Below, piece by piece: positions 1,185 to 22,353 of a DNA stretch of 36,582 nucleotides (positions are counted from its first letter, which is position 1; each line of letters starts with the position of its first letter). This stretch comes from a virus: positions 1 through 36,582 of the IMG/VR virus record IMGVR_UViG_3300033141_003346. One strand, written 5' to 3'. The notes under the pieces were generated by a model, which saw nothing but the letters and a program-made list of their open reading frames with translations, searched no databases and was not told the origin of the DNA. Position numbers and translations under genes: made by a program.

Positions 1185-1325
1185 TTAATGCAGTCGCCTT
1201 GTCAGACTGAAGTGTAAATAAAAAAAGCGGTTCATTCCAGAACCCAGGAGGAGGAGACAGGGAGGTCTCGGCTTTCGCCGCATATCGGAATGAACCGCTC
1301 TTTTGCTATAAATAAAAGTGGACAA
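1185..1325 (-). CDS. Possible 46-codon leader ORF overlapping the structured RNA
   Basis: A TTG at 1325 lies 9 nt after GAGGAG, within an AGGAAGAGGAGA purine tract (1335-1346). The frame stays open through the whole hairpin to TAA at 1185-1187. Translation would melt the terminator stem, so it could act as a leader peptide. Composition (many Arg and Leu, CLLLLG) is not convincing for a conserved protein, and the frame may be fortuitous. Listed because the Shine-Dalgarno-like tract is itself complementary (11 of 12) to the RNA's CU-rich segment. Confidence 0.25.
   Translation of the reverse strand: MSTFIYSKRAVHSDMRRKPRPPCLLLLGSGMNRFFYLHFSLTRRLH
1217..1304 (-). ncRNA. Short multi-branched structured RNA ending in an intrinsic terminator; anti-Shine-Dalgarno segment
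   Basis: On the minus strand a perfect 13-bp closing stem (1287-1299 with 1226-1238, AGCGGTTCATTCC) encloses two hairpins. One is CGGC-GAAA-GCCG with a GNRA loop (1269-1280). The other is GAGAC/GTCTC (1254-1269). A single-stranded CTCCTCCTCCTGGGTTCT segment follows. Seven U residues (1220-1226) follow the closing stem, so it also works as a rho-independent terminator. The layout and the pyrimidine-rich anti-Shine-Dalgarno segment recall the phage C4 antisense RNAs (P1/P7), but I cannot verify family membership without a covariance search. A consensus promoter lies about 50 bp upstream (1359-1386). It could also simply be an elaborate terminator for the early operon. Confidence 0.65.
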
Positions 1326-1358
1326 TTGTAAATTTCTCCTCTTCCTGAATCTATTTTA

Positions 1359-1386
1359 AATATAATTCCTTTTTGCCTTTTGTCAA
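1359..1386 (-). promoter_or_regulatory. Promoter for the structured RNA, overlapping the XRE gene stop codon
   Basis: TTGACA (1381-1386) and TATATT (1359-1364) are separated by 16 bp. The TGA stop of the XRE gene is inside the -35 box. Nothing except the leader ORF and structured RNA lies between this promoter and the U-tract at 1220-1226, so the probable product is an RNA of roughly 130 nt. Confidence 0.7.
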
Positions 1387-1731: not shown

Positions 1732-2550
1732 TTAATCCTCCAGTTCATTATCTCTATTTTCTTTTTCCTCGTTTTCCTGACCGTTGGTTTCAATAGTCCC
1801 AAGCCTGTCTGACAGGCGGCGGGTCATTTCACCGTCTTTCTCCGGCAATGATTTCACTTCCAGGTCTATCAATCCCGCCGCCGAATTGTCCGCCTCGACC
1901 GCTTTGTCAATTTCTACGCTTGTAGGCAAATATTTAAACAGCCTGCGTACAACCGTTTTCCTCGTCATCTCATTCCAGTCGGTTTTCCAGGGCCCCGATC
2001 CTCCGGCTTTGCTCCGGGCCTGAATCGATTTGATCTCATCAAGCCTCATATATTCAAATTGCGGTTCTTCATTCTGGTGAAAAAACGCAACCGCATAAGC
2101 TCCGATCACCGCACCCCGGTCTTCTCCCAGATAGGGCTGGTGTTTAAGTCCCGGTTTAGTACCTAGGATCATTTCGAACTTATCCTTGCCATATACTAAC
2201 CTGGCTTCAATCTTGCTTACAACCCCGGAACGCCTGGCCAGGTCAATTAATCCTCGGTAACCGGGCATAAATATAGCTTCAAGCGTACCATGCACTTTAT
2301 AGGGGATCATATATGCATGACCTTTTGCAGGCGTAAAATCCAGCCCCAGTTCCGCTGCATTCACAATGGCCGTGAACAGGCTGGCCGGTGTACATTTTCT
2401 CAATTCGGGATTTCTTGAAACGGCCAAAAGCGCACTTTTAATGAACCGATCAACATCCTTAACATGGTGAGGTAAAAGCTGACGGATTGCCGGTTTCTTT
2501 TCTTCCAGCATATCCTGAATTGTAAGATGCGTTGATTCAACTGTAGTCAT
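1732..2550 (-). CDS. recT: RecT-family single-strand annealing protein
   Basis: The 272-aa product has the RecT signature throughout: LRKCTPASLFTAIVNAAELG (residues ~50-70), PAKGHAYMIPYKVHGTLEAI, FMPGYRGLIDLARRSGVV, and MTRKTVVRRLFKYLP near residue 195. RecT/Redbeta proteins anneal complementary single strands and pair with a 5'-3' exonuclease. Here the partner is the YqaJ-type nuclease immediately upstream, whose stop overlaps this start by 4 nt. The C-terminal ~45 residues are acidic and charged, as usual. The Shine-Dalgarno is very long (GGAGGAGGAGA, 2555-2565) and lies in the last codons of the exonuclease gene. It is complementary for 11 nt to the structured RNA near 1250. Confidence 0.95.
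   Translation of the reverse strand: MTTVESTHLTIQDMLEEKKPAIRQLLPHHVKDVDRFIKSALLAVSRNPELRKCTPASLFTAIVNAAELGLDFTPAKGHAYMIPYKVHGTLEAIFMPGYRGLIDLARRSGVVSKIEARLVYGKDKFEMILGTKPGLKHQPYLGEDRGAVIGAYAVAFFHQNEEPQFEYMRLDEIKSIQARSKAGGSGPWKTDWNEMTRKTVVRRLFKYLPTSVEIDKAVEADNSAAGLIDLEVKSLPEKDGEMTRRLSDRLGTIETNGQENEEKENRDNELED
1803..1817. repeat. GCCTGTC-T-GACAGGC palindrome in recT
   Basis: A 7-bp perfect inverted repeat with a single-base centre, related to the CTGCC/GGCAG elements elsewhere. It lies within the C-terminal codons of recT. Confidence 0.5.
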
Positions 2551-3494
2551 TTTTTCTCCTCCTCCAGATTTTTCAGTCTGGCGACTCGATAAGTGGTTGG
2601 CATTGCTACTTCCGAATATACTTCCGGGAATCTGCTTTTCAGCAATTTTCTGTCGATCCTGTCCGCTCCTTTCTGTTCAAGATAAGTGAACCATTCTCCT
2701 TCGGGCGTAATTCCTGCCTCAGCATCTTCAAGAGATTCAAGCAAAGCTGCGAAGGCCTTTTTTTCCCGTTTTTCCGCATCAAGCCTTTCCTGCCGAAACT
2801 TTTTCCAGTTATCTACAAGCTCTGTCGGAATAACCGTCGTTTTTTCCGGCACTCGTTCTATCCGCTTGAGCAATTCGATTCGTGCCGGTTCATCCTGCGG
2901 AGGCGGTTCTTTCTGAACAATGTGCTTATTCCACCAATCAGTTCCAATTTTAACCAATCTGGCAATCACTTCATCATCTCTCTCAATCCGGTACATCCGC
3001 ATATTCAGCCTGCCGAAGTGAGTAGTCAGTACCGGCACAAATACTCTCTCCAGATCGGCGCAATAAATCTGATGATGGCATTGTAAAGCGACATAATCCG
3101 GTACCTGGTCTGTATCTTCTTCGCCCCACTCTGCGCTCAGATTTGTAGTCTTTGCCTCGAATCCGACCGGCAGGTATTCTTTTTTCTTCCTGCCATTCCC
3201 GCTGATATACTGAAAAGCAAGACCGTCAAGGTTCGCTCCGAAAACGCCTTTTGTCCGGAATTGATTGCGGGCAATTCTATATCCCGATTTTTGTTCTGCA
3301 AATCTTAACAGGCCGTCCTCAAGGTAATTTCCTCTTGAGGTGTCAGCCGTTTCTTTGTCTGGAGCTAGAGAATATACTTTGCGCACCCAGACATCCCTTG
3401 CTGTAGCCCAGGGGCTGAGGCCGCAAATAGCTGCTATATCTGAACTTCCTATATAGCGTCTTCTGCGCTCTATTTGCTTTTTTGTGATGGCCAT
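2547..3494 (-). CDS. YqaJ-like (lambda-exonuclease superfamily) viral recombinase
   Basis: The 315-aa product belongs to the PD-(D/E)XK nuclease group that includes lambda exonuclease and YqaJ. Visible elements are IGSSDIAAICGLSPW (residues 15-29), the conserved glutamate in RGNYLEDG (E59), the catalytic Asp in ANLDG (D90), the E-x-K pair in GFEAKTT (E113, K115) and the LQCHHQIYC helix with Q138 and Q142. It should process double-stranded ends 5' to 3' to give single strands for RecT. The C-terminal third is rich in charged helix. The start ATG overlaps the end of the ribbon-helix-helix gene by 25 nt. Confidence 0.92.
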   Translation of the reverse strand: MAITKKQIERRRRYIGSSDIAAICGLSPWATARDVWVRKVYSLAPDKETADTSRGNYLEDGLLRFAEQKSGYRIARNQFRTKGVFGANLDGLAFQYISGNGRKKKEYLPVGFEAKTTNLSAEWGEEDTDQVPDYVALQCHHQIYCADLERVFVPVLTTHFGRLNMRMYRIERDDEVIARLVKIGTDWWNKHIVQKEPPPQDEPARIELLKRIERVPEKTTVIPTELVDNWKKFRQERLDAEKREKKAFAALLESLEDAEAGITPEGEWFTYLEQKGADRIDRKLLKSRFPEVYSEVAMPTTYRVARLKNLEEEKK

Positions 3495-4054: not shown

Positions 4055-4227
4055 TTTTCCCTCCTTAGATGATTAATAATATTTACCGTCAAAAGAAAGA
4101 GGGCGCAGAGGCACTCCGACAACCGGGGAGAGGTGGGAACCAGCCGCCGCTTTTTCGGCTGATTCGTCTCTGAAGCGGCCCCCGAAGGCCGGAGAGCGGG
4201 CTGGACTTCCAGCTTGTGCGCCCTCAT
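4051..4227 (-). CDS. Hypothetical small basic protein (58 aa), low confidence
   Basis: The start at ATG 4227 has a good AGAAGGAGG site 8 nt upstream, and the TGA overlaps the next ATG. The product is basic and Pro-rich (NQPKKRRLVPTSPRLSE) and ends in a hydrophobic patch (CLCALFLLTVNIINHL). An alternative frame (4073-4273) gives a 66-aa Gly/Ala/Ser-rich product but lacks a good ribosome-binding site. Local base composition is more GC-rich than the neighbours. Function not recognised. Confidence 0.45.
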   Translation of the reverse strand: MRAHKLEVQPALRPSGAASETNQPKKRRLVPTSPRLSECLCALFLLTVNIINHLRREK

Positions 4228-4229
4228 TT

Positions 4230-4442
4230 TTAATGCCTCCTTCTGAATTCGCAGAGGCAAACATACTCTTCATGGCATTCCCGACAAATCAATCGAGCCT
4301 TTGTCGGGTGAAAGTATGGCAACTTCTCACGGCTATATCTGCCACAAGAAGCGCAGTAATGATAGTATTTTTCTTTCCAATCAACATTTTTCCGCCTCAC
4401 TTCCCTCACTTCGATGAGGCGATTATTTGAAAATGTTAACAT
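4230..4442 (-). CDS. Small zinc-ribbon protein (70 aa)
   Basis: ATG 4442 with a long GAGGAGGAGA Shine-Dalgarno (4445-4454). Two cysteine pairs, YHYCASCGRYSREKLPYFHP and LICRECHEEYVCLCEF, mark a zinc ribbon of about 40 residues behind a charged N-terminus. It is the second gene of the early operon. Its extended Shine-Dalgarno is complementary for 10 nt to the structured RNA near 1250. Function unknown; nucleic-acid or host-protein binding is likely. Confidence 0.72.
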   Translation of the reverse strand: MLTFSNNRLIEVREVRRKNVDWKEKYYHYCASCGRYSREKLPYFHPTKARLICRECHEEYVCLCEFRRRH

Positions 4443-4513
4443 TTTCTCCTCCTCGTTTGAGGTTTATCTTTTTGTACCACAACAATTTAACAAAATTTCC
4501 CAGATTTTTTCGA

Positions 4514-4555
4514 GATGTTTAGAATCATTTAATCCTTTTTACGATTCTAAACATC
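4514..4555 (-). terminator. Perfect 13-bp inverted repeat spanning the stop codon of the 199-aa gene
   Basis: GATGTTTAGAATC (4514-4526) and GATTCTAAACATC (4543-4555) are perfect inverted repeats with a 16-nt loop that contains the TGA stop. There is no U-tract immediately after, so it is not a classical intrinsic terminator. It may be a partial attenuator, an RNA-stability hairpin or a protein-binding dyad within the early operon. Confidence 0.5.
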
Positions 4556-5124
4556 AAATTCACAGGCGAAACCTCTTGATCAATGGTTCGCCTGTTGTTT
4601 TCCCCGCGGTTCGATCGCCGCAGGGAAACGACGACTGCGACCTCGCCGGGCTGCAGTCCAGAAAAGAGTGGGGAGTCGGCTTTAACTGCTCCCCAGCCCT
4701 CCACGATTTTTGCCGTGGAGGGGTGCCCCACATAGTGTGGAACACCTAAAAAGAACGGGTCAGGATCAACGGGCTGACTGTAGCCCCTCTCCTGATCCAC
4801 TCTTTCCAACTGGCCATCCGGGGTGCCCCAGATATCCAGCGTTCTTACTTCATATGTCCCGTCCAGTGGCAGGACGGTGGTCGTCAACACCGCCACCGGA
4901 CGGCCTGCCCCGCACTGGCAGCAGATATCCACTTGGCCGCCAGGCATGGCAAAGTATCTTTCCACGCGTTTCACTTCCTTGTGGTACGCTTCGGTATCAT
5001 TGACGAGGTAACTATCCTCATCAGTGATGCCATACTTTTGTGCCACCTTAGCGATGGCACACTCTTTACAAGTCCCGGTAGCATCCACCGGGACGCCGAT
5101 TCTGATACTGGTAGAGTTAATCAT
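4525..5124 (-). CDS. Hypothetical protein, first gene of the early operon (199 aa)
   Basis: ATG 5124 has the long Shine-Dalgarno AGGAGGAGGA (5126-5135) and lies about 30 bp after a consensus promoter. The protein has a CKEC pair (residues ~19-22) and CCQCGAG (residues ~69-75), suggesting a zinc-bound N-terminal half. A Gly/Pro-rich C-terminal half follows, including DPFFLGVPHYVG and LFSGLQPGEVAVVVSLRR. Local GC is higher than in flanking genes, and codon use looks different, which may signal separate origin. I recognise no family. As the first early gene it may be a host-takeover factor. Confidence 0.7.
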   Translation of the reverse strand: MINSTSIRIGVPVDATGTCKECAIAKVAQKYGITDEDSYLVNDTEAYHKEVKRVERYFAMPGGQVDICCQCGAGRPVAVLTTTVLPLDGTYEVRTLDIWGTPDGQLERVDQERGYSQPVDPDPFFLGVPHYVGHPSTAKIVEGWGAVKADSPLFSGLQPGEVAVVVSLRRSNRGENNRRTIDQEVSPVNLMFRIVKRIK

Positions 5125-5163
5125 TTCCTCCTCCTATGGTGAATTGATTTTTGAATCTAATTT

Positions 5164-5192: not shown

Positions 5193-5312
5193 GTATTTTT
5201 TTGTTTTCTTTTTATTTATATTATACGCATATTTTGTGCCAGAAATGCTTATATCATAAGTTATTGGATATTAGGCAGTTAGGAGTTTCGGTTTTTTGCG
5301 GAAGTGAAAAAT

Positions 5313-5402
5313 TGTGTGATATGACACAATTTGGTGTGTGATATGACACAAAAGCTTATAAGTGATTGATATATAATAATTTAAGGTGTGTGATATGACA
5401 CA
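5313..5402. promoter_or_regulatory. Three identical 16-bp palindromic operators
   Basis: TGTGTGATATGACACA occurs at 5313-5328, 5335-5350 and 5387-5402. It is symmetric except at positions 6 and 11 (TGTGTnATATnACACA). The first copy extends the symmetry to 20 bp as ATTGTG...CACAAT. Starts are 22 and 52 bp apart, about two and five helical turns, so a dimer-binding regulator could bind cooperatively. They sit 120-240 bp upstream of the early promoter and flank a plus-strand TATAAT at 5372-5377. The binding protein is unknown. Confidence 0.8.
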
Positions 5403-6467: not shown

Positions 6468-6777
6468 AAGCGTTTCCTTCCTTTTTCGCAATATTAACAC
6501 TATGCGCTTTGATCAAACTATCCTTCACTGCTCTTAATTCCAGTTTTCTTTGCTCGATTCTCTTTTTTATCCCCTCAAGAATCGAAAGCATTTCTGCTCT
6601 GCTTCTTTCTATTTCGATCAGATTTTTTTCAATTTTGCTTTCAACAGAATCCGCCCGGCTTCCCGGCGGCATATCCGCCCTGCCTGTCGGCAGACACGGC
6701 GCAATCATAAGTGTCAGCATGACTATTGATAGCAGGGTAATTGTACTCAAATAAAATATGTAACTTCTAATTGACAC
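6409..6777 (-). CDS. Membrane-anchored coiled-coil protein, candidate spanin or lysis accessory (122 aa)
   Basis: GTG start at 6777 behind GGGAGGAAG. An N-terminal hydrophobic helix (FYLSTITLLSIVMLTLMIAP) is followed by a short Pro/Gly/Arg segment encoded by a CTGCC/GGCAG palindrome (6681-6700), then a long charged coiled coil from about residue 45 to 95. One N-terminal TM plus a periplasmic coiled coil is the plan of Rz-type i-spanins. No adjacent lipoprotein partner is obvious. It overlaps both the spike gene and the next lysis gene. Confidence 0.5.
   Translation of the reverse strand: MSIRSYIFYLSTITLLSIVMLTLMIAPCLPTGRADMPPGSRADSVESKIEKNLIEIERSRAEMLSILEGIKKRIEQRKLELRAVKDSLIKAHSVNIAKKEGNAYGGKSIETGAGNCIAENER
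6681..6700. repeat. CTGCC/GGCAG palindromic element inside a coding region
   Basis: TGCCTGTCGGCAGACACGGC repeats the 5409-5446 element in reverse complement. Inserted in frame, it contributes the CLPTGRAD peptide to the membrane-anchored lysis-region protein. Confidence 0.65.
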
Positions 6778-9142
6778 GCTTTTCTTCCTCCCAAATATTA
6801 ATTAACACATCATTCAGCACGAATAAAACAATCGCTTTTTCACTGTAAACGTCCAGTCCAAGCAAGGCAAAAGCAGGTTTTATCAGGTTCAAATCCGCAA
6901 GGGCTTGAAGGCCGAGAACCGGATTCGCCTGTAATGTCAGTTGCTTTCCGCTTTCAAAATCCATTCCCAGTATTACTTCCACCGGAAATTCGACTCCGGC
7001 AAAACAGCCAGTTTCAGCGTCCAGAGCCAAAAGCACTTCATTTCCCCATTCGTAAAGCTTAGCGTTAGATGCTGTCCCGCCATAGAGCTTGTTGTTATAT
7101 ACGGCAAGAGAAAAAATATAGTTTTCGCTTCCCAGCGTCGGAGCTTTTTCTATCCATGCATCCGTCCCGTTCCATTCCAGGAGCTTGCCGTTGAGACCTG
7201 TCCCGCCATAGAGCTTGTTATTATATACTACAAGAGAGTGAATATAGTTTTCATTTCCTAGTTTCGGAGCTTTTTCCACCCATGCATCTGTCCCATTCCA
7301 TTCATAAAGCTTAGCGTTGAGACCTGTCCCGCCATAGAGCTTTTCGTTATATACAGCGAGAGACTGAATTTCACACTCGTCTCCCAGCTTCGGGGCTTTT
7401 TCCACCCATGCATCCGTCCCGTTCCATTCCAGGAGCTTGCCTCCGGGATATGTCCCGCCGTAAAGCTTATTGTTATATACGGCGAGAGACATAATGTGTT
7501 TTTCGTCTCCCAGTTTCGGAGCTTTTTCCACCCATGCATCTGTCCCATTCCATTCATAAAGCTTAGCGTTAGGTGCTGTTCCGCCATAGAGCTTGTTGTT
7601 ATATACGGCAAGAGAGCGAATGTACATTTCGTCTCCCAGCTTCGGGGCTTTTTCCACCCATGCATCTGTCCCATTCCATTCATAAAGCTTAGCGTTAGGT
7701 GCTGTCCCGCCATAGAGCTTGTTGTTATATACGGCAAGAGAGCGAATGTACATTTCGTCTCCCAGCTTCGGGGCTTTTTCCACCCATGCATCCGTCCCGT
7801 TCCATTCCAGGAGCTTGCCTCCGGAACGTGTCCCGCCGTAGAGCTTATTGTTATATACGGCAAGAGAGTAAATATAGCTTTCATTTCCCAGCTTCGGAGC
7901 TTTTTCATGCCATGCCGGATAATTCGGCACTGGAAATTGAAGCTCCTTTCCCGTTTCCGCATTCAGGCCGAGCGATACTGAAACCGAACCGAAAAATCCT
8001 GCGATAAGCTCCGAATACAAATCCAGGCCGACCGTAACATGGGCGGGCAAAGCGAGTTCTTTTCCGGTGTAAGCCCCTATTTCGATTTTCGAGCTTGCCG
8101 GTGCAGTAATCTCTTTGCCTGTCTCCGCTTTAAGCCCAAGAGTTACTGAAACCGGTTCTTCTACATCAGGCAGGATATATTCACATGCTCCTATATCCCA
8201 ATTGGTTCTTGTTTTCCCGAAAAGATCAACGGTAAATTTAGCCGACAAATCTTTCCCGTTTCCTATCGGGTCGCTGCTTTCGGCCAGGGTAAAGTCATCA
8301 TTATCATAATCCGTAAAAGGAGAGGTGGTTTTATTTATTCTGTTATCACTGCCTGTTGACCAGTTTCCGTCAGCCGCCGTTGCATCGCAAGAGGAATTGT
8401 TATATCCGGTCGCATTGCCGATTTCATAAAAATCCTGCCTCGTAGTGCTGTTTACATAATTATTATGGCAGAGGTTGTTTTCAGCCAGAATCGATTTGCT
8501 TTTAAGGCGAATACCTGCTATGCCGAAACAATCAACAATCGTATTGTTGGAGATGAAAGAACCTGCGCCCGGGGCGGCATTGATGTATATCCCACAAGTA
8601 TAATTGTTCTGTGCGCCTCTAAAATCGAAAAATATATTGTTGTAAATATTCAGAACAGCACCAGCGACTCCTATATAAAACCCATAGCCCCCGTAGGCTT
8701 CAGTGCTGTTCGGATTGCCGATCAGTATACAATTTCTCTCTATAAACGTGATATTGGAAGTGGCTATTCTTGATACAGGGCCATTGAAACCCTTAGTCCC
8801 CTCGCCGTCATGCTTGATTACCAGCCGTTCGATGATTACTGTACCCGAGCCTTCAAAAATTAATTGTACGGCATTGATATTATTGCTCGTATCATGGAAT
8901 TTTATCCTCGGCCCGGAAGAGCCGTCCGTTTCAGTGAGGTAATCTTCAGCCGTAACTTTCAGCGTATATCCGCCGAGATTTTCTGTTACATCGGCGGGCG
9001 CAGTATTTTCAGTAAACTCGGAAGGATCGACCGTCAAAGTGATATTGCCGGTAAGATTTCCTAAGTCATCCCAGAAAGCCGTCCAGCTAGAATAATCCCC
9101 GCCGGATAATTTCAGCGTTACATTTCCCGCCGTTAAAGGCAT
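6767..9142 (-). CDS. Tail spike / receptor-binding protein with beta-helix and kelch-like repeats (791 aa)
   Basis: The N-terminal ~330 residues look like a right-handed beta-helix (GYGFYIGVAGAVLNIYNNIF, SILAENNLCHNN) and end with FGKTRTNWDIGACEY, the pattern of choice-of-anchor/beta-helix proteins. Then come short repeats of the form VxLGLxAETGKE. Next are seven 42-aa units with the core SLAVYNNKLYGGT and LYEWNGTDAW, resembling kelch/beta-propeller blades. The final section repeats the LGLD/AETG motif. It begins 10 nt inside the preceding gene. Position between tail-tip and lysis genes and the repeat structure fit a host-binding or glycan-degrading spike. Its substrate is unknown. Confidence 0.75.
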   Translation of the reverse strand: MPLTAGNVTLKLSGGDYSSWTAFWDDLGNLTGNITLTVDPSEFTENTAPADVTENLGGYTLKVTAEDYLTETDGSSGPRIKFHDTSNNINAVQLIFEGSGTVIIERLVIKHDGEGTKGFNGPVSRIATSNITFIERNCILIGNPNSTEAYGGYGFYIGVAGAVLNIYNNIFFDFRGAQNNYTCGIYINAAPGAGSFISNNTIVDCFGIAGIRLKSKSILAENNLCHNNYVNSTTRQDFYEIGNATGYNNSSCDATAADGNWSTGSDNRINKTTSPFTDYDNDDFTLAESSDPIGNGKDLSAKFTVDLFGKTRTNWDIGACEYILPDVEEPVSVTLGLKAETGKEITAPASSKIEIGAYTGKELALPAHVTVGLDLYSELIAGFFGSVSVSLGLNAETGKELQFPVPNYPAWHEKAPKLGNESYIYSLAVYNNKLYGGTRSGGKLLEWNGTDAWVEKAPKLGDEMYIRSLAVYNNKLYGGTAPNAKLYEWNGTDAWVEKAPKLGDEMYIRSLAVYNNKLYGGTAPNAKLYEWNGTDAWVEKAPKLGDEKHIMSLAVYNNKLYGGTYPGGKLLEWNGTDAWVEKAPKLGDECEIQSLAVYNEKLYGGTGLNAKLYEWNGTDAWVEKAPKLGNENYIHSLVVYNNKLYGGTGLNGKLLEWNGTDAWIEKAPTLGSENYIFSLAVYNNKLYGGTASNAKLYEWGNEVLLALDAETGCFAGVEFPVEVILGMDFESGKQLTLQANPVLGLQALADLNLIKPAFALLGLDVYSEKAIVLFVLNDVLINIWEEEKRVN
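7046..7912 (-). repeat. Array of about seven 126-bp coding repeats (kelch-like blades)
   Basis: Seven units of 42 codons run from W at 7912 to W at 7046. Units two and three encode identical peptides and differ by about one base in the stretches I compared. Differences cluster at two spots: the residues around G-[DN]-E-x-x-I-x-S, and the four residues between GGT and KL. The array is long enough for homologous recombination to change copy number. Confidence 0.88.
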
Positions 9143-9657
9143 ATACTATCACCGTCCTGCTTTATATACGAAAGCTCATCAGATTTAACTTCCACAATCT
9201 CGCTGAAGGTGCGCTTATCCTTCCAGTTTTTAACCTTCTCAGAAGGCAAGGTCTTTTCAAAATCAAAAACAAAGCCACGGGGCTTTGTGGCAAGACTTTC
9301 CTTTTCCGCTTCATCAACAGAACTTTGATTTAGAACCGATCTGGCGTGTTCATCCTCAGCCGGAGAACACCAGGCTTGCGCCTGCTCAAAAGTGCAGTCT
9401 ATCCGCACTATTCCGTAATGCTTCAATTCAAGCCTTCCCCAATTCCAGCCGTCTGGCTTGAAAGTGATAAAATGACCCTTTTTGGTAACTTTGTCATTCA
9501 GTCTGATGAGATAATCACTGCTTCCGCATACGGGGCAAGGAGCTTTAAAAGTGTCATCTTCAAAGGATACCCTACTGTCAGCACGATTTCTATGAACGGG
9601 ATTCAGACAGATTACCCCCGTACTTCTCTTGTCTTCAAGCCTTACAAGGAATTCCAT
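9133..9657 (-). CDS. Hypothetical virion-region protein with one zinc-knuckle-like pair (174 aa)
   Basis: ATG 9657 follows AAGGG. The N-terminal half has APCPVCGSSDYLIRL (CxxC) with upstream C17 and H22 as possible further ligands. The middle has GHFITFKPDGWNWGRLELKH, and the C-terminus is charged. It lies between tail-fibre-like genes and the spike. I do not recognise a family. It may be a chaperone or an accessory tail protein. Confidence 0.6.
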   Translation of the reverse strand: MEFLVRLEDKRSTGVICLNPVHRNRADSRVSFEDDTFKAPCPVCGSSDYLIRLNDKVTKKGHFITFKPDGWNWGRLELKHYGIVRIDCTFEQAQAWCSPAEDEHARSVLNQSSVDEAEKESLATKPRGFVFDFEKTLPSEKVKNWKDKRTFSEIVEVKSDELSYIKQDGDSICL

Positions 9658-9680
9658 AATAAAACATTCCCTTCTGTGGC

Positions 9681-10097
9681 TTAAACTATATCAAATTTTA
9701 GCTCGAAAGGCTTCAGGGCGTATTTATTGCCGTTGGCCAGGGTGTTCACGCCCTTGTTTTCCGCCACGTAAATTTTACCGCTGGTCTTTCCCCTGACTGC
9801 ATATCCGTAAATAGTCAGGTCTCCGGTAATATCCCAGGTGATACCATCAGAACCGTTATAGGCACTGACCACCGGGTCTTCCGCCGTGGCTGCACTCCAT
9901 GTCGCCTTCGTTAAATCCTTTTTCTCTCCGCCGTTCGTGGTGATTTCGGTCAAATCCGAATCGGTCGTATCTTTTGTAATCGTTGCGTCATTAGAGAACA
10001 AAAATATTTCCTTGTCCTCCGGGGTAGCACTGTCTTTGAGAACCGCATCCGCAAGTTCTTGCGTACCCTCGATACACCAGCTTTTTGATACTGCCAT
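9681..10097 (-). CDS. Small tail-fibre-like beta-rich protein (138 aa)
   Basis: ATG 10097 behind AAAGGAGAG. The sequence is Thr/Ser/Asp-rich with alternating hydrophobics (EKKDLTKATWSAATAED, GITWDITGDLTIYGYAVRGK). The ITGYAV-type strand near the C-terminus is frequent in small virion proteins of the head/tail-fibre class. No enzymatic motif. It is probably a structural component of the tail tip. Confidence 0.6.
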   Translation of the reverse strand: MAVSKSWCIEGTQELADAVLKDSATPEDKEIFLFSNDATITKDTTDSDLTEITTNGGEKKDLTKATWSAATAEDPVVSAYNGSDGITWDITGDLTIYGYAVRGKTSGKIYVAENKGVNTLANGNKYALKPFELKFDIV

Positions 10098-10115
10098 TTT
10101 TCATCTCTCCTTTTT

Positions 10116-10715
10116 TCAGGAATAAGGATAGAACTCGAACTCTACTTTATGGGAATTGTCATCTATTCTCTGCGCATCCTGCCCTTCGGGTACTGTTATC
10201 TTTCTCCAGAATGTATAGTTGTCCGCAGTCGGATCGCTGAAATCCGAAGGACTTAAACTCGATCCGTAGCTCCCAGGCGAACCTGCAACATCCGGCGCAT
10301 ATTGAAACCAGCCCTCCTCATCACCGCTGGCCTGGATAGTAATATTTTCATAAGTATATGCGCTGTAAACAGGATCGCCTTCCGAGGCTGAAATCGGCTC
10401 GTCTCCTCTTTGAACCGTCAAAACATTCGTACCATCACCGGCTGCAATTGTCATGATCTCGCTGTTCTCACCGGATACCAGGATAATAAGCGGATAATTA
10501 TTAATATCATCAAAAACCGGCGCTCCTATTATGATTTCCGTCTGTGCATCGTCAATATCAGCAGTCAAAGCTGTTTGCGCAGGAGCGAGTATAAGCTTCT
10601 GCTCCACAGCTTCTCCGTCAGTGCCGTTAAAATTGTCATCATCATCATTGGTATGCGCTCCGCCCCGTGAAACGAGATTATCATCAGCTATCGAGTCTTT
10701 ATAGATTCTAAGCAT
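10116..10715 (-). CDS. Putative tail-tip structural protein (199 aa)
   Basis: The start ATG 10715 overlaps the TAG of the coiled-coil gene in ATGCTTAG; a TTG at 10742 in the same frame is possible but less likely. The protein contains an AQTALTADIDDAQTEIIIGA segment and VLTVQRGDEP. This is the pattern of small beta-sandwich domains in phage tail proteins, where a value/uncertainty loop precedes V-x-R-G. The C-terminal part includes FWRKITVPEGQDAQRID. Assigned by context and composition. Confidence 0.62.
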   Translation of the reverse strand: MLRIYKDSIADDNLVSRGGAHTNDDDDNFNGTDGEAVEQKLILAPAQTALTADIDDAQTEIIIGAPVFDDINNYPLIILVSGENSEIMTIAAGDGTNVLTVQRGDEPISASEGDPVYSAYTYENITIQASGDEEGWFQYAPDVAGSPGSYGSSLSPSDFSDPTADNYTFWRKITVPEGQDAQRIDDNSHKVEFEFYPYS

Positions 10716-21174: not shown

Positions 21175-22012
21175 AATTGCTTCTTTCAAGCCGGATATGC
21201 TCTTGCATAACAGTAGTGTCTGCCGCAGCGGCCCCAATGCGGATAATTTTCATCCACTGCGCCGCCATAATATCTTTTTCATCAACCCACAGCCACGCAT
21301 TAGCGCCCGCATCGTCTGTTTCCGTTTTAAGCATTATCGTATCGGGCGGGATAGTTTGCCCCCAGCCGAAACCGTTGTTATAACAAGCTATATAATTTAT
21401 CTCCGGAGTCGCCTTGCTTGATCTTATGCCGAATTGAATCGACCTGACTTTTCCTCCCAAATAAAGCATTCTGGAGGTGTCCGTGGAAATTCCCTTGACT
21501 GTATCCTGGGCAAAATAAACAACATGCAATGCCGGTTCTTCAATCCTGCGAATCATAATTGTAAAACGATCCGCTCTGCTTCTCTGCCCTGCCAGAACCG
21601 GGGACTGATTGTTAAAATTAATCGCAAACAGGCTGTCAATTCCATTGACCGGATACTGCGGCCAGTACACTAATTCATCAATTCTGAAAGTGTCTTTAAA
21701 TGTTTTTGGATTCCCGCCGGAAGAAAACATTATCGCAGCAACTGTCTGGAGGCTGTCCCGAATCGTATCGAGCAAAGAGGCGCTTAATTTAATTTCGGGT
21801 AAAGTATCCGGTCTATTGGTTGTGATCGTAACTCCTTCTTCCGGCAGTAAAGTCCCGCTCGCTTGCGTTACCAGCAATTCAATTCCATCTTTAAAATCCA
21901 GAATATCGAATTCAGCGGAAACCGGGATCGTGTTCTGACCTATTGCCGATCCGTGTAAAATCCAGACAGAGACCAAAACTGCCGTTAATAATCTCAATGA
22001 TTTTTTTATCAT
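21173..22012 (-). CDS. Secreted protein of unknown function inserted between capsid and connector genes (279 aa)
   Basis: ATG 22012 overlaps the preceding TGA and has AAAGGAGC. A classic Gram-negative signal peptide is visible: MIKKSLRLL, then TAVLVSVWILHGSAIG with a likely cut after G25. The mature part is rich in Asp, Thr, Ser and aromatic strands (ELVYWPQYPVNGIDSLFAIN, LHVVYFAQDTVKGISTDTSR). There are no catalytic motifs. A signal peptide in a head-structural operon is unusual. It could be a periplasm-targeted accessory protein, or a decoration protein whose N-terminus is only hydrophobic. No family recognised. Confidence 0.72.
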   Translation of the reverse strand: MIKKSLRLLTAVLVSVWILHGSAIGQNTIPVSAEFDILDFKDGIELLVTQASGTLLPEEGVTITTNRPDTLPEIKLSASLLDTIRDSLQTVAAIMFSSGGNPKTFKDTFRIDELVYWPQYPVNGIDSLFAINFNNQSPVLAGQRSRADRFTIMIRRIEEPALHVVYFAQDTVKGISTDTSRMLYLGGKVRSIQFGIRSSKATPEINYIACYNNGFGWGQTIPPDTIMLKTETDDAGANAWLWVDEKDIMAAQWMKIIRIGAAAADTTVMQEHIRLERSN

Positions 22013-22353
22013 TTCACTGCTCCTTTCATCATTCTTTTCACCATCCCTTTCACCATTCCTTGCTTTATCAGGGCGATGCGCTCTCTTTTGTTTTTCGCCC
22101 CGGATATATCAATCCCAAGCTCGGCAGCCCTGGCTGTCAACTCGGTATTATTCATCTGAGAAAGATGCTTATTCGGCGCTGAAATATCTTCTTCCTTATC
22201 TGATACTTCAGCCTCGATTTTTTCAGCAATCGGGCCGCGCTTGCCGCCCCTGGTAATCAAATCTTCCGCAACTTCATCAGATACCTCGATAATATCACCT
22301 ATTTTTGCATCCGGCTTTCCAAGCCAGCACTGCAAAAGCCTTACTTTTTTCAT
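22009..22353 (-). CDS. Small head-associated protein with SAP/HeH-like C-terminus (114 aa)
   Basis: ATG 22353 with CAGGAG. The N-terminal ~50 residues (MKKVRLLQCWLGKPDAKIGD, IIEVSDEVAEDLITRGGKRG) resemble small phage head proteins with a KxGDxxEV motif. Residues ~67-100 (NNTELTARAAELGID, NKRERIALIKQG) have the helix-extended-helix/SAP pattern. The C-terminus is a repetitive tail (VKGMVKRMMKGAVK) encoded by 12-nt repeats that also contain Shine-Dalgarno-like purines. It follows the major capsid gene. Confidence 0.68.
   Translation of the reverse strand: MKKVRLLQCWLGKPDAKIGDIIEVSDEVAEDLITRGGKRGPIAEKIEAEVSDKEEDISAPNKHLSQMNNTELTARAAELGIDISGAKNKRERIALIKQGMVKGMVKRMMKGAVK

Follow-up and report, generated by a model that had tools for sequence, protein, structure and literature searches.

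A structured RNA element with its own predicted promoter at the end of a phage recT-cro operon carries a stretch complementary to the recT ribosome-binding site

Introduction

In phage lambda, a short RNA, OOP, is found near the boundary between cro and the replication genes; it is encoded on the opposite strand and is antisense to cII. Other RNAs that act on translation starts, or that originate at the ends of operons, have been described in phages and bacteria. The loops of the C4 antisense RNA of phages P1/P7 pair around a ribosome-binding site (PMC12197685). NfeR1, one of the alpha-r14 ('cuckoo') RNAs of alpha-proteobacteria, folds into three hairpins, each of which has an identical CCUCCUCCC in an unpaired region, and silences via these CCUCCUCCC loops at translation starts (PMC10746234). 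OppZ and CarZ are RNAs from operon 3' ends that are released by RNase E and repress their own operons (PMC7398697).

Here we analyzed a stretch of viral DNA of 36,582 nucleotides (hereafter the window), in which a phage riboregulator had been proposed from the sequence, and compared the locus with these systems. Like alpha-r14 / NfeR1, the predicted phage RNA is compact, has its own sigma-70 promoter and contains in its loops a CCUCC-rich anti-Shine-Dalgarno segment, and pairing is predicted at translation starts, here as complementarity only (PMC10746234). Unlike NfeR1, it has one stem in place of three hairpins, one head domain and a single CU segment, whose CUCCUCCUCCU lies partly in a hairpin arm, and the two RNAs have no sequence in common. 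Like OppZ and CarZ, it lies at an operon 3' end, ends at the terminator common to the operon and is complementary to one of the operon's genes, recT, with which it is predicted to pair; unlike those RNase E-released RNAs, it has a predicted promoter of its own, and it is not known to depend on a chaperone. The element seems to resemble NfeR1 in its chemistry and OppZ/CarZ in its layout, but cannot be assigned to either family.

The original prediction had also likened the RNA to C4 (RF01695). It does resemble C4 as a phage antisense-type RNA with predicted pairing around a ribosome-binding site, but the likeness does not extend to family membership: the Rfam C4 covariance model was unmatched even at E values up to 10, the genomic position is different, and there is no ant target, since no ant-like gene was found among the window proteins scanned (a subset of the ORFs) and the best target is recT. 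The locus is also similar to the tR1 / OOP region of lambda in having a terminator and a short RNA near a cro - replication-gene boundary, but the phage RNA, unlike OOP, shares its strand with all genes. The RNA-gene-like element is real, and is most likely either a small RNA or simply a terminator, with about equal odds.

Results and Discussion

An exact 114-bp direct repeat is present at both ends of the window, which fits a complete phage genome of ~36.5 kb that is circular or terminally redundant, and all recognisable genes are carried by the minus strand. The early genes follow a lambda-like order, namely early gene 1, small genes, YqaJ, RecT, a Cro/C1-type HTH gene, the RNA element, HTH_17, RepO and a DnaB-type helicase. 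Early gene 1 (4525-5124, minus) is an open frame of 199 aa that contains CxxC motifs, and its protein found no match in a Pfam search. The YqaJ nuclease gene (2547-3494, minus) is followed by the RecT gene (1732-2550, minus; family match E 2.4e-45) and by the Cro/C1-type HTH gene (1383-1598, minus), which lies directly upstream of the RNA element. The latter gene matches DUF739 at E 8.8e-6, slightly short of the cut-off, as well as repressor PHROGs, and its top matches are the 'Cro-like repressor' of Streptococcus phages. The RNA element sits between this Cro-like gene, which closes the YqaJ-RecT operon, and the HTH-RepO-DnaB block. The genes downstream are served by promoters of their own at 1159 and 913, the former (1159-1131) belonging to the HTH_17 gene (929-1099, minus). 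Replication protein O was recognised by PF04492 (E 4.7e-21); six TTACCTTTTTGGGTAACG iterons lie within its gene (302-473) and are likely the replication origin, as in lambda O.

The consensus promoter that had been proposed for the RNA is present as a sigma-70-type TTGACA-16-TATATT at 1359-1386 on the minus strand, with its -35 hexamer overlapping the Cro-like gene's stop codon. The minus strand has three sites that score 11/12 or better, versus 0.25 expected from shuffles; one of them is the RNA promoter at 1386, and the other two each precede a gene (5192, early gene 1; 1159, HTH_17). When the local 120 nt were shuffled, a site of at least 11/12 arose in 0.3%. No plausible gene lies between this promoter and the terminator immediately downstream. 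The RNA promoter resembles the early promoter (5192-5164), with ~45 nt that align and include a common TAGATTCA just past the -10, and because only 1.6% of shuffles with both hexamers fixed align equally well, the two promoters may be copies.

The predicted transcript, whose start was placed by the -10 spacing and whose end was placed by the terminator, is ~130 nt long (1217-1352, minus). Folding, which the original prediction had proposed as a check, gave the predicted RNA (about 1352 to 1220) an energy of -46 to -47 kcal/mol, lower than that of any of 200 dinucleotide shuffles (z = -4.68). Of the 19 pairs of the folded closing stem (5' arm 1286-1304 and 3' arm 1221-1239, minus), 13 are perfect, as had been claimed (three overlapping perfect 11-mers); the stem is GC-rich and leads directly into a U-tract, which is the form of an intrinsic terminator. 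The stem encloses a 46-nt head. Both of the internal hairpins described before, GGC-GAAA-GCC (1270-1279, minus) and GAGAC-CUCCCU-GUCUC (1254-1269, minus), were found there, but the MFE structure adds a weak third hairpin, making three inner elements. A perfect inverted repeat of at least 11 appeared somewhere in 29 of 60 shuffled genomes and hence is not rare; the telling feature is the combination of promoter, stem, U-tract and structured head. From the computed promoter, fold and terminator we infer a discrete transcript, and these features give good support to an independent small-RNA gene whose head is anti-Shine-Dalgarno-like.

The anti-Shine-Dalgarno-like stretch, UCUCCUCCUCCU, is present at 1246-1257 (minus), as are its three proposed matches, of 11 nt to recT, 10 nt to early gene 1 and 10 nt to the zinc-ribbon gene. 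Genome-wide, the transcribed strand has a single CTCCTCCTC, in the RNA head, and complements of this sequence with three GGA repeats are found at the starts of these three genes only. The 12-nt stretch is not fully exposed as had been thought but partly paired: its first four bases (1254-1257) serve as the 3' arm of the GAGAC-CUCCCU-GUCUC hairpin, some of the others sit in the weak hairpin of 3 pairs, and opening 1246-1257 costs about 3.2 kcal/mol. Three gene matches of at least 9 nt were obtained in 3% of dinucleotide shuffles of the head, in 0/300 mononucleotide shuffles and in 0.4% of random minus-strand 48-mers, all of which are generous figures, as the three-target pattern was noticed before the test (post hoc).

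The main alternative, about as probable as the reading favored below, is that the element is a strong intrinsic terminator of the recT-cro operon and nothing else, with a long neutral apical insert, a weak or idle promoter and a CU run that matches Shine-Dalgarnos by chance. Its stem and U-tract in a position between two operons would suit such a terminator, as would the promoters that the downstream genes have of their own and the 3% of dinucleotide shuffles with comparable matches, but a promoter of this rarely expected score exactly upstream, with no plausible gene between, speaks against it, and a structured head of 46 nt is unusual for a terminator.

Because nested folding bars pairing inside a closed stem, we replaced plain RNA-mRNA cofolding with an accessibility-based calculation, in which targets were judged by net energy, including what it costs to open the two RNAs, for ungapped duplexes only. 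The best predicted target is the recT Shine-Dalgarno, GGAGGAGGAGA (2555-2565, minus; 11-nt match), at -13.6 kcal/mol versus -6.1 at the 1% level of random sites, and its net energy was steady across four context lengths (-11.6 to -13.6 kcal/mol). The Shine-Dalgarnos of early gene 1 (5126-5135, minus; 10-nt match) and of the 70-aa zinc-ribbon-like gene (4445-4454, minus; 10-nt match) are weaker candidates, with -6.8 to -10.1 and -5.6 to -9.1 kcal/mol, respectively, in the four contexts, and gene 22009-22353 (-6.3 to -9.4) and the RHH gene (-7.2 to -8.5 kcal/mol) overlap with both. When gapped duplex energy alone was considered, many coding sites in the genome matched the segment as well as the claimed targets. 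The comparison of pairing energies with other starts, which had been suggested with the original prediction, sets recT apart as one clear energetic outlier, while the sites of the other two claimed genes lie among ordinary Shine-Dalgarnos; recT is the sole target worth testing, its pairing being predicted. The segment also resembles the 16S anti-Shine-Dalgarno, and any GGA-rich start is a possible target, which would suit a small RNA that acts on host mRNAs, or a general anti-Shine-Dalgarno decoy, and not on phage recT; we consider this very unlikely.

The three early genes had been proposed to be repressed in trans. The small-RNA gene and its complementarity to recT were upheld by our analysis, but equal action on all three genes was not. 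From this complementarity and the recT outlier, both computed, we infer pairing in vivo and repression, and tentatively favor a phage small RNA that is made from its own promoter and silences its own recT operon. A short RNA would start where the recT-cro operon closes and stop at the terminator common to that operon; its structured head would offer the CU-rich anti-Shine-Dalgarno segment, which would pair with the ribosome-binding site of recT and may also pair, less strongly, with those of the two further early genes. Translation of these targets would be lowered, a negative feedback that would close the early recombination operon. If this is true, the phage would have an early-gene feedback loop in which an operon terminator also acts as an anti-Shine-Dalgarno regulator of the recombinase encoded in that operon, and the principle of small RNAs from operon 3' ends would be extended to phage recombination modules. 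A bolder version, in which the terminator-built anti-Shine-Dalgarno RNA is transcribed from a copy of the early promoter and jointly silences the triple-GGA early genes as an early-to-late translational RNA switch, appears quite unlikely.

As a partner for the CU stretch, the leader of the RNA itself comes close to recT. This purine-rich leader, GAUUCAGGAAGAGGAGA (1335-1351, minus), can form with the stretch a duplex of 16 pairs (3 G-U, one mismatch) at -24.5 kcal/mol, a complementarity with p about 0.008 in dinucleotide shuffles, and the self-complementary leader may occupy the CU stretch. The segment could then pair mainly within its own RNA as a pseudoknot or switch, with a structural role or as a cis attenuator of read-through into HTH17-repO-dnaB. 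A 46-codon ORF (1185-1325), which begins at a TTG preceded by a good Shine-Dalgarno in the leader, extends across the terminator, and its translation could melt the terminator. However, opening the two strands costs 6.8 and 7.8 kcal/mol (about 14.6 together) before any pseudoknot penalty, so leader pairing gains little and the fold is predicted to be favourable only marginally; moreover, the ORF is without a family match and HTH17 has its own promoter. We regard such a switch as unlikely. The same 46-codon frame was rejected as a stand-alone gene, as the terminator lies within it and no family was matched.

Relatives of the element were sought by sequence and structure. Rfam searches at gathering and relaxed thresholds gave only chance sub-threshold matches, the best being to a toxic sRNA family (E 0.49), and a DNA similarity search among phages gave no related stretch. 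A search of viral contigs with the stem pattern returned a single contig, L001 (9,158 bases), which is nearly identical to the window, shows no difference within the RNA and is the only relative found for the RNA stretch. L001 differs from the window by one mismatch and two gaps, all within 5216-5282; it lacks 57 bases there, upstream of the early promoter, and the one differing base is beside the gaps. No syntenic relative was found when the Cro-like, RecT, DnaB, TerL, early gene 1 and RepO proteins were used as anchors against viral and genome collections, and the gene order differs in the RecT relatives L005-L007. In one of these, L006, a reverse-transcriptase-like gene lies beside a gene with a common AAWSSAAAW-type repeat (8279-10528), and this locus looks like a diversity-generating retroelement.

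Several other structured or repeated elements were seen in the window. A second large structured intergenic element follows the zinc-ribbon gene (4095-4231, minus), with a closing stem GAGGGCGCA...TGCGCCCTC, a head of ~110 nt and a T-rich tail; it had no match in Rfam (CcsR1 at E 0.1 only). The early gene 1 region (4514-5124) is dense in perfect short hairpins, with fold z as low as about -6 for either strand, and upstream of this gene there are three TGTGTGATATGACACA-type palindromes (5311-5402), which are probably operators. Tandem repeats of ~126 bp occupy 7046-7915 inside the gene for a 791-aa protein (6767-9142), where they appear as self-similar blocks in the comparison with L001.
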